12,849 bases of DNA. It comes from Gemmatimonadota bacterium (GTDB lineage: Bacteria > GCA-2686955). Each line of letters starts with the position of its first letter. The first letter of the stretch is position 1. A program made the position numbers and the translations under genes. Below are positions 6,004-8,817 of this stretch, piece by piece. Below the pieces are notes generated by a model. That model did no database searches. It was given only the letters and a program-made list of their open reading frames with translations, and was not told where the DNA came from. The stretch is from contig NYZA01000014.1 of the NCBI GenBank assembly GCA_002686955.1, positions 1 through 12,849 on the forward strand, given 5' to 3'.

Positions 6004-6389
6004 GATGTGCCTCCCTTCTCGCGGAAACGGTATGATTTCCGCGCGATTTGATGGATCGACCAGCGGCGCCACCCTGGTGATTCTCTTCCGGTGATACGGC
6101 GGTGCTCGTTCTCCCGTATTGCCGCCGCATTGTCCGTGCCAAACGTTCAAATCGCTTGCCAGATACCGGTTAGGGTGATATCACGAACCCTCGACACGAA
6201 ATCAGTGCCGGTCAGCGCGACGCTCCCGTCAAGCCGTTGTCAATCACACCGACGGCATCGAAGTTCACAACAGTCTGCCAATAGCACGACCACCTCCCTT
6301 GACCCGACCAGCGCTCCCGGTTAATCAAGAAGAGGTTCGATGCCGGGGCGAGCCCGGCCCATCCACTCATCGACCGTCAGGAGGTACCG
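6004..6389 (+). other. Intergenic region upstream of the thioredoxin-like gene
   Basis: About 386 bases with no supported gene on either strand. It lies between two diverging units (the minus-strand leader/epimerase and the plus-strand thioredoxin-like gene), so it should hold both promoters; I could not identify either with confidence. It contains a 10-bp palindrome GTGATATCAC (6175-6184), a possible operator but also expected by chance at this size. It also contains a GC hairpin in the probable 5' leader of the plus-strand gene (GCCGGG 6342-6347 with CCCGGC 6353-6358), about 20 bases before the ribosome site AGGAGG at 6379-6384. Confidence 0.5.
6010..6017 (-). promoter_or_regulatory. Strong ribosome binding site for the 21-codon ORF
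   Basis: AAGGGAGG on the minus strand, six bases before ATG 6003. It is the main evidence that the short frame is translated. Confidence 0.4.
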
Positions 6390-7208
6390 ATGATCAGTTC
6401 CAAGACGCTCGTCGCATTGCTCGCCCTGCCGCTAGCGACCGGATCCGCGACGGCGAGCTACAACATCGGCGATGTCGTCGACAACTTCATACTGGACGAT
6501 GTCGACGGCGTGAGTCACTCGCTGTACGATTACGAAGGCAAGTTGATCGTACTGAACTTCGGAGAGTATTGGTGAGGCAGCTGCAACCTCGAATGGGCGG
6601 CTATGGACCAAGAGATCTGGCAGCCGTACAAAGACGAGGGCGTGGTGGTCATCACGATCGGATCCGACGGTTTTTCGCAGTTCAATCAGAAAGAACAACA
6701 GTACAACACGGGCTGGGTCTGGCTTTTCGACGCATCTAAACAGCTCCAAGACGACTACGGTGTTTGGTTCTATCCCAGCAACCTGATGCTCGATCAGGAG
6801 TTCAGGCTCGTCTACCAGAGCACCTTCAGCCAATGGACATTGGAGTACCTTCACGAGCCGATTCAAGAGCACCAATACGACGTATTCGTGCACCAGATCG
6901 AACCAAGGCACCAGATCGTGCAGGCCGGCGACGCCTTCTCGTTCGACGTGATGCTCTCCAATGCCACGGCCGGCCCTAGATCGGTCAGCGCCTGGCTGGA
7001 TGCCATCCTCCCCGGCCACGTGAACTACGCCGGCAACCCGGTCGACAGCCAGCAGCTGACTCTTCCCGGTGGCGCTACGGGAGGCAACACACTCTCGCTG
7101 CAGGTTCCAGGAACCGCTCCAGCCGGGGACTACTGGATCCGACTTTCGGTCGGAGACGATCAGACGACACCCGGTTGCGCCGATCTGGCGCGAATCACCG
7201 TCGAATAG
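6390..7208 (+). CDS. Exported thioredoxin-like protein with in-frame TGA at the redox cysteine (probable selenoprotein, 272 aa)
   Basis: Start ATG 6390 has a perfect AGGAGG (6379-6384) five bases upstream and opens with a signal peptide (residues 1 to about 22, ending S-A-T-A-S). A TlpA/AhpC-type thioredoxin fold follows: G-K-L-I-V-L-N-F, then Y-W-TGA-G-S-C65. In this family W-C-x-x-C belongs here, so the TGA (6573-6575, codon 62) replaces the nucleophilic cysteine. The same frame continues without a break: V-V-V-I-T-I-G-S-D, Y-G-V-W-F-Y-P-S (the cis-proline segment), and a C-terminal Ig-like module (about 165-272) ending at TAG 7206-7208. If TGA is read as selenocysteine, this is a periplasmic or secreted UxxC oxidoreductase. 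Other genes here (866, 1849, 4901, 10182) use TGA as stop, so the genetic code is normal. The alternative is a nonsense mutation TGC to TGA; broken neighbours downstream keep that open. No selenocysteine machinery is visible in the window. Confidence 0.8.
6576..6602 (+). promoter_or_regulatory. Candidate SECIS-like stem-loop just after the TGA
   Basis: AGCUGC (6579-6584) can pair with GCGGCU (6597-6602), with one U-G pair. Two further pairs, CC (6587-6588) with GG (6595-6596), form above a two-base bulge (AA), leaving the apical loop UCGAAU about 14 bases after the TGA. Bacterial selenocysteine insertion elements are stem-loops in the coding sequence directly after the UGA, so position and size fit. 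The loop does not begin with the G-U seen in well-studied examples, so this is only a candidate. Confidence 0.35.
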
Positions 7209-7782: not shown

Positions 7783-7817
7783 CGCGTTACCATTGCGCGC
7801 TAGCCCGAACCGTGAAC

Positions 7818-7829: not shown

Positions 7830-8817
7830 GTGACGATCCTGACACCGACCAAATATGCTTGCACCCTCGCGGCCACGATCCTGATCGGATCGACGGCCCA
7901 GGCCCTTGGCAACACTCCCCTCCCCCGCCCGGCGGCGATCAAACCCGCGCGCACCGTAGTGGCTTCCGGGTCCGACGCGAGCCGTGTAGTCGTCAAGTAC
8001 GCCGAAGGGATCGAGGTACGCCTCGACCGCGGCGATCTGAGCGCATCGGCTCCCGGCCTCGATCGGCTCTTTCGCCGTGCAGCTCTTCGATAGGAGCTAC
8101 CGTGACTCGGGCGCGATTCTGGTCGGCGCCGGCACTCCCTCGAATCACGCCCCGGAGTATTTCACCAACTACGGGAGTCGAATCGACTGTCAGGGCTATG
8201 GATCCGGTGTCTATTCAACCGGTTATGGCGATCTATGGGAGCCCGAGATCGACCAGGCCTACACCAGCTCTTTCAGCGGCACATCGAGTGCGAGCCCGAT
8301 CGTGACCGGGGCCGCGGCCGCGACATTCCTACTGAATCTCGAGACCTCGGGCCGCTTCCTCACCCCCTTTGAGGTACGCGATCTGCTCTCGACCCATGGC
8401 ACGCCTCAAGGACCTCCCCTGAGCAAGCCGATCGGCGTGCTGCCCGACCTCGCCGAAATCGTTCAGAATCTGCTGCCCGGGTACGGGTGGAGAATGGAGA
8501 TGCTACCGGAGGTGAACCAGATCGCTCCGGGGGACCAGGCCGGTGTGATCATGCGTCTCAGCAACACCGAGTCGGTCGAAGCGACGACGCAGGTATGGGT
8601 CGAGGCGATCCTCACCGGTGAGAATCGCTGGCCGTATGGGCGGACCCTGGGATCACCTCGTGATGTCACGGTGCCCGCGCAGAGCAGTCAGCTCCTTTCG
8701 ATCAGCGTCACGGTGCCCTGGGCCGCCGAGCTTGGCACCTACGTCGTCACCGCCTATTCGGGGGACGAACCGACCGCTCCCCTCAGCGCATCGTTCGCGC
8801 ACGTCGAGGTTAGATAA
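7830..8817 (+). pseudogene. Subtilase (S8) with its central catalytic half missing and a frameshift
   Basis: GTG 7830, with GGAGG seven bases upstream, begins a signal peptide (Y-A-C-T-L-A-A-T-I-L-I-G, cleavage near A-Q-A) and a pro-region (S-R-V-V-V-K-Y-A-E-G-I-E-V-R-L) that ends at TAG 8091-8093. An overlapping frame (open from about 8077 to the TAA at 8815-8817) starts abruptly inside a subtilase domain: L-F-D-R-S-Y-R-D-S-G-A-I-L-V-G-A-G, F-T-N-Y-G-S-R, and the nucleophile block G-T-S-S-A-S-P (Ser codon 8284-8286). The Asp, His and oxyanion Asn parts are absent, so probably 200 or more residues were lost and the frame changed. CTCTT occurs on both sides of the junction (in D-R-L-F and in L-F-D-R), which suggests deletion between short repeats. 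A C-terminal Ig-like module (about 8490-8814) resembles that of the thioredoxin-like protein. It cannot be an active protease. An assembly error is possible. Confidence 0.75.

Follow-up and report, generated by a model that had tools for sequence, protein, structure and literature searches.

Organization of the Putatively Recoded Gene

The window, the whole 12,849-nucleotide stretch of DNA analysed here, contains a 272-codon reading frame in which codon 62 is TGA; the rest of the frame is open and ends in TAG (Table 1). The TGA is read directly in the sequence of one draft assembly and lies in the motif W-U-G-S-C; when the readthrough protein is aligned with ResA, position 62 falls on the first Cys of CxxC, in agreement with the initial annotation, which had put the TGA on the first Cys of a W-C-x-x-C motif. 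The 210 codons 3′ of the TGA remain open with normal coding scores (0.19−0.22 per codon), and they include C65, the cis-Pro and the Ig-like module, as had been described. Standard ORF calling yields two products of 61 aa and 201 aa, which is the split that had been anticipated. Of the 102 single-base routes by which a stop can arise in the readthrough frame one falls on codon 62 (1/102), which bears out the earlier view that a chance nonsense hit at this codon is unlikely.

Table 1. Features of the TGA-containing gene and its surroundings in the window.
Feature	Coordinates	Strand	Basis
Readthrough gene, exported ResA/TlpA-like thioredoxin-fold oxidoreductase (putative), 272 aa, U at 62	6390..7208	+	AhpC-TSA 4e-16, ResA 6e-13, Foldseek
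In-frame TGA at the nucleophilic Cys position of CxxC	6573..6575	+	Sequence, alignment with homologues
Shine-Dalgarno-like AGGAGGT upstream of ATG 6390	6379..6385	+	Sequence read
Probable signal peptide (predicted)	6390..6458	+	Hydrophobic N-terminus in translation; helix 4−16 in model
AhpC-TSA/thioredoxin-fold domain with resolving Cys65 and cis-Pro129 loop	6465..6803	+	Pfam, alignment, model
Expected bSECIS region, without canonical element	6576..6640	+	Hairpin scoring, covariance model
C-terminal β-sandwich (Ig-like) module	6882..7205	+	Common to other exported proteins of the genome; model

The readthrough protein is a member of the AhpC-TSA family (PF00578; 59.5 bits against a gathering cut-off of 26), and ResA is its nearest solved structure both by sequence and by fold; the predicted fold has a mean pLDDT of 77.6 and matches ResA in Foldseek with an E-value of 3e-11 and a TM score of 0.83−0.89 when normalised by target length. 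ResA/TlpA-like proteins are extracytoplasmic thiol-disulfide oxidoreductases. C/U62, C65 and P129 are invariant in an alignment of ten sequences; the redox pair, the cis-Pro loop and the thioredoxin fold are all present. Against the model for ResA proper (NF002854) the protein scores 62.3 bits, below the curated cut-off of 170, and it is considered kin to ResA outside NF002854. Membership of the UGSC family was also considered and dropped, as the protein has no match to the NF041046 model (UGSC-containing selenoprotein) at E-values up to 10.

The Ig-like module is seen again in roughly nine further loci of the genome, including the subtilase at 8077−8817, and this recurrence suggests a general surface or secretion role. 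Copies are found on contigs C5, C12, C64, C76, C80, C134, C219 and C244 of this genome (G000), and the module also occurs across proteins of G001 and G103; a Pfam search of the module gave no family above the cut-off. Multidomain architectures are also found in several other UxxC homologues. The pairing of a UxxC thioredoxin with this C-terminal module, for which the initial annotation knew of no described selenoprotein, is therefore a more modest novelty, as the module is common in the exported proteins of the genome and other UxxC homologues also carry additional domains. The subtilase gene at 7812−8817 itself looks broken; an ORF at 7812−8093 with a signal-peptide-like start overlaps, in another frame, the ORF at 8077−8817, in which the S8 domain is represented only by its C-terminal part.

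Selenocysteine Machinery and Stop Codon Usage

The genome is a draft MAG of 4.28 Mb in 270 contigs with 84.5% completeness. A tRNA-Sec is found at 76.9 bits and is called tRNA-SeC by ARAGORN; the next-best matches to the tRNA-Sec model that were checked are other tRNAs, and therefore only a high score was counted. SelA and SelB are both found in the assembly, and SelD (contig C248, L018:1531-1533) has an in-frame TGA of its own followed by a strong canonical SECIS at spacing 26; the search for selA, selB, selD and tRNA-Sec suggested at the outset thus recovers all four. TGA is the commonest stop codon, closing 184 of 287 called genes in the 396 kb of the genome that were sampled, in line with the earlier statement that neighbouring genes use it as an ordinary stop.

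Thirteen AhpC-TSA loci are found in this genome and four of them have an in-frame TGA, in each case at the first Cys: C66 (WUPVC), C27 (WUPIC), C108 (WUPIC) and the window gene. C27 (L053:1618-1620), C66 (L054:1597-1599) and C108 (L172:1666-1668) are three more probable selenoproteins, each a WUPxC protein of the AhpC-TSA family with a canonical SECIS; C27 also contains LVIVD repeats and an Ig-like domain, and C66 has an FlgD_ig tail. The SelB of the organism would serve four canonical SECIS elements. The organism therefore has the capacity for Sec insertion and by all signs uses it in the sister genes. In other TGA-bearing genomes a tRNA-Sec of at least 59 bits is found in 10 of the 11 tested, the exception being G116, which is 60% complete; the survey left out the TGA-bearing genomes G206 and G331. 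As tRNA-Sec occurs in some Cys-only genomes too, the survey is a consistency check and is not discriminating.

Homologues and Phylogeny

A search of the genome contigs with the single protein gave no matches, and 80 loci were recovered with a four-sequence profile. It had been proposed to look for Cys or Sec at position 62 of the homologues, and both are seen: 22 distinct genes, the window gene included, have TGA in this alignment column, and more than 105 have Cys. The TGA occurs at the equivalent codon in 18 distinct homologues from other genomes; the phylum-wide search for TGA orthologues covered two genomes of the host’s phylum. The nearest relatives of the window gene are a gene of G001 and the paralogue C47 of the same genome, and both have TGC at this position. 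Immediately ahead of the second Cys, Pro is present in 101/112 Cys homologues versus 2/21 of the other TGA homologues, and the window gene has Ser; these counts are not independent, because TGA genes from one phylum are related. The motif GSC occurs in 5/21 TGA homologues (the five being related) versus 0/112 Cys homologues. In the phylum of G078 (L026, L149-L155, L157) nearly every close homologue has the TGA; these homologues mostly share a hairpin core of GGAGGCUCC, whose imprint is seen in the residues E-A-P that follow the motif.

In a quick tree the window gene nests together with its two Cys relatives in a clade comprising 19 Sec and 12 Cys rows (SH-aLRT 83−91), and within the clade the trio is sister to a Sec group (SH-aLRT 85); because the trio nests among mostly Sec members, Sec is the more economical ancestral state. 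The branch to the window gene is long (0.55 in the same tree). Residue changes on this branch number 9/38 before the TGA and 26/85 after it, while the two Cys relatives differ from each other at 4/38 and 27/88 positions in the same regions; judged from these sequences, change on the window branch is neither concentrated nor faster downstream of the TGA, relative to the Cys pair.

The Expected SECIS Region

The published bSECIS rule describes a loop of 3−9 nt, a stem of 4−16 bp, a G in the first two loop bases, a spacing of 16−37 nt and an MFE of −7.5 or lower (PMC13188914). Downstream of the TGA the other 21 TGA genes form a gap-free alignment with a common hairpin made of a 7-bp stem and a 5-nt loop. 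Each of the seven stem pairs has changed on both sides, and the covariation is 0.507, whereas shuffles give 0.159 and slid controls no more than 0.176. By the published rule, 20/21 of these homologues have an element at spacing 16−17 with −4 kcal/mol or lower, and the remaining one has an interrupted stem of −2.2 kcal/mol; the same scoring finds an element in 1/111 Cys genes.

By the published rule the window gene has no canonical element in the expected region, its best uninterrupted stem reaching −0.3 kcal/mol. Two candidate hairpins are present: one, at spacing 13, has a UCGAAU loop in which neither of the first two bases is G, and it breaks the rule; the other, if bulges are allowed, is an imperfect hairpin with an AGAGAUC loop at spacing 35 and −10.7 kcal/mol, which is within the MFE limit. 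This second hairpin is at background level, being equalled by 26/112 Cys homologues and by 147/300 synonymous recodings. When the window gene is left out of the covariance model, its TGA scores 10.2 bits with the hairpin bypassed, versus 26−46 bits for the other TGA genes, which as training members score this highly by construction. The model is considered to work because it also recovered two TGA genes outside the training set, from Krumholzibacteria, at 36−37 bits; both have the motif WUPVC (L073:1139-1183 and L069:1795-1839), and in L069 the TGA gene is located upstream of the Cys homologue through which that locus was recovered. An Rfam scan of the TGA region gave no match, and the 61-nt fold around the TGA is no more stable than its shuffles (z 0.80).

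A subset of genuine selenoprotein genes fails the bSECIS model (PMC13188914, PMC12013277), and bSECISearch missed at least 13% of known selenoprotein genes in one benchmark (PMC12013277). The initial annotation did not take a SECIS into account. The case for Sec is weaker for the window gene than for its TGA relatives, since the other TGA homologues have a SECIS and the window gene has no recognisable one. That UGA-62 is read as Sec despite the lack of a canonical bSECIS, through an atypical hairpin (at spacing 13 or 35) or a weaker need for any hairpin, is considered an evenly balanced proposition.

Interpretation of Codon 62

UGA-62 of the window gene is probably decoded as Sec; the probability is put at roughly 0.75, as a judgement and not a computed posterior. 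The TGA, its alignment with the catalytic Cys, the full Sec machinery and the probable Sec sister genes come directly from computation. The position of the TGA, the sister Sec genes, the lost Pro of CxPC, the mostly Sec clade and the absence of faster change downstream argue for Sec; the missing SECIS, the TGC of G001 and C47, the long branch, the broken-looking subtilase neighbor and the reliance on one draft assembly count against it.

The best-placed alternative, considered unlikely, starts from a Cys gene whose natural protein would read W-C-G-S-C and in which TGC became TGA, either by recent nonsense mutation or through an error in the consensus. It would account for a gene without SECIS whose two closest relatives carry TGC, one base away, and the source is a draft MAG in 270 contigs; however, such an event must strike exactly the codon where relatives carry Sec, and the loss of the CxPC Pro marks Sec members. 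Interrupted genes also look rare in this genome, with 19 candidates in 396 kb, most of which have a start codon just past the stop; this screen is rough and missed C66. The probable Sec gene C108 is among its candidates, and few of the others were judged unexplained.

Slightly less probable still is a decaying selenoprotein gene, in which the TGA and GSC are relics, the SECIS has been lost and the present product is limited to the 61-residue fragment. A place within a mostly Sec clade, a Sec-like GSC motif without SECIS and the long branch would all be expected of such a gene; the Cys paralogue C47 could take over its function, and a degenerate-looking subtilase gene lies ~600 bp downstream. 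Decay is opposed by the intact coding character of the codons after the TGA, which, measured against the Cys pair, have not evolved faster than the upstream codons, and by the retention of a good Shine-Dalgarno site. A general reassignment of TGA to an ordinary amino acid, or readthrough without Sec, fits a frame open on both sides of the TGA but is very improbable, as the in-frame TGAs of SelD and of the AhpC-TSA genes occupy positions typical of Sec and genome-wide reassignment, contradicted by the stop usage, was dropped.

With Sec as the preferred reading, the gene product would be a UxxC thiol-disulfide oxidoreductase that is exported and belongs to the ResA/TlpA-like (AhpC-TSA) class; the SelA/SelB/SelD/tRNA-Sec system would read UGA-62 as selenocysteine, and its SECIS, if present, would be atypical. 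Sec62 is predicted to act as the nucleophile and Cys65 as the resolving residue, a pairing that fits the reduction of disulfides or peroxides, which would take place outside the cytoplasm; the Ig-like C-terminal domain probably serves in attachment or secretion.

If the UGA is truly decoded, the gene would be a natural test of the tolerance of bacterial SelB for a non-canonical SECIS, and its three sister genes with canonical elements would supply internal controls from the same genome; if it is not, the gene cautions against taking a TGA at a catalytic Cys plus complete Sec machinery as proof. This one genome has four candidate UxxC genes; because gene callers split such genes, UxxC thioredoxins are annotated too rarely in poorly sampled phyla.

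Comparison with Known Selenoproteins

UxxC proteins of PF00578 are already among the prokaryotic selenoproteins (PMC13188914; Prx-like 1 in PMC2398784), and UxxC proteins of cd02966 are also listed (PMC13188914); because these have the same fold, the window protein is a member of a described UxxC class (PF00578/cd02966) and not a new family. The initial annotation of a probable new selenoprotein (UGSC) is thus probably right about Sec, while the protein falls in the described class and, without a match to NF041046, outside the UGSC-containing family; the unusual feature of the window gene is its absent SECIS. Thioredoxin-fold selenoproteins fused to extra domains were described in 2008.

The UGSC-containing selenoprotein of NF041046 has the string UGSC in common with the window protein and is otherwise of a different family. 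The WAxxUGC protein of NF041054 is also a ResA-like selenoprotein, but it matches weakly (15 bits against a cut-off of 300) and has its Sec in a UGC motif, whereas the window gene has UxxC. ResA from Bacillus (PDB 4nmu, 1st9) shares the fold, the position of the CxxC, the cis-Pro and, by prediction for the window protein, an extracytoplasmic location; however, it is a Cys protein with CEPC/CKPC and has no C-terminal Ig-like domain. The Prx-like thiol:disulfide oxidoreductase (PF00578, UxxC; Prx-like 1) is alike in its AhpC-TSA fold, in having Sec first in UxxC and in its common Cys homologues, but the window protein has an additional Ig-like domain at its C-terminus, and its gene has no recognisable bSECIS. 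The thiol-disulfide isomerase-like protein of cd02966, a TlpA-like domain, shares by its description the ResA/TlpA-like fold and the UxxC motif; the window protein differs from it in having an accessory C-terminal domain.
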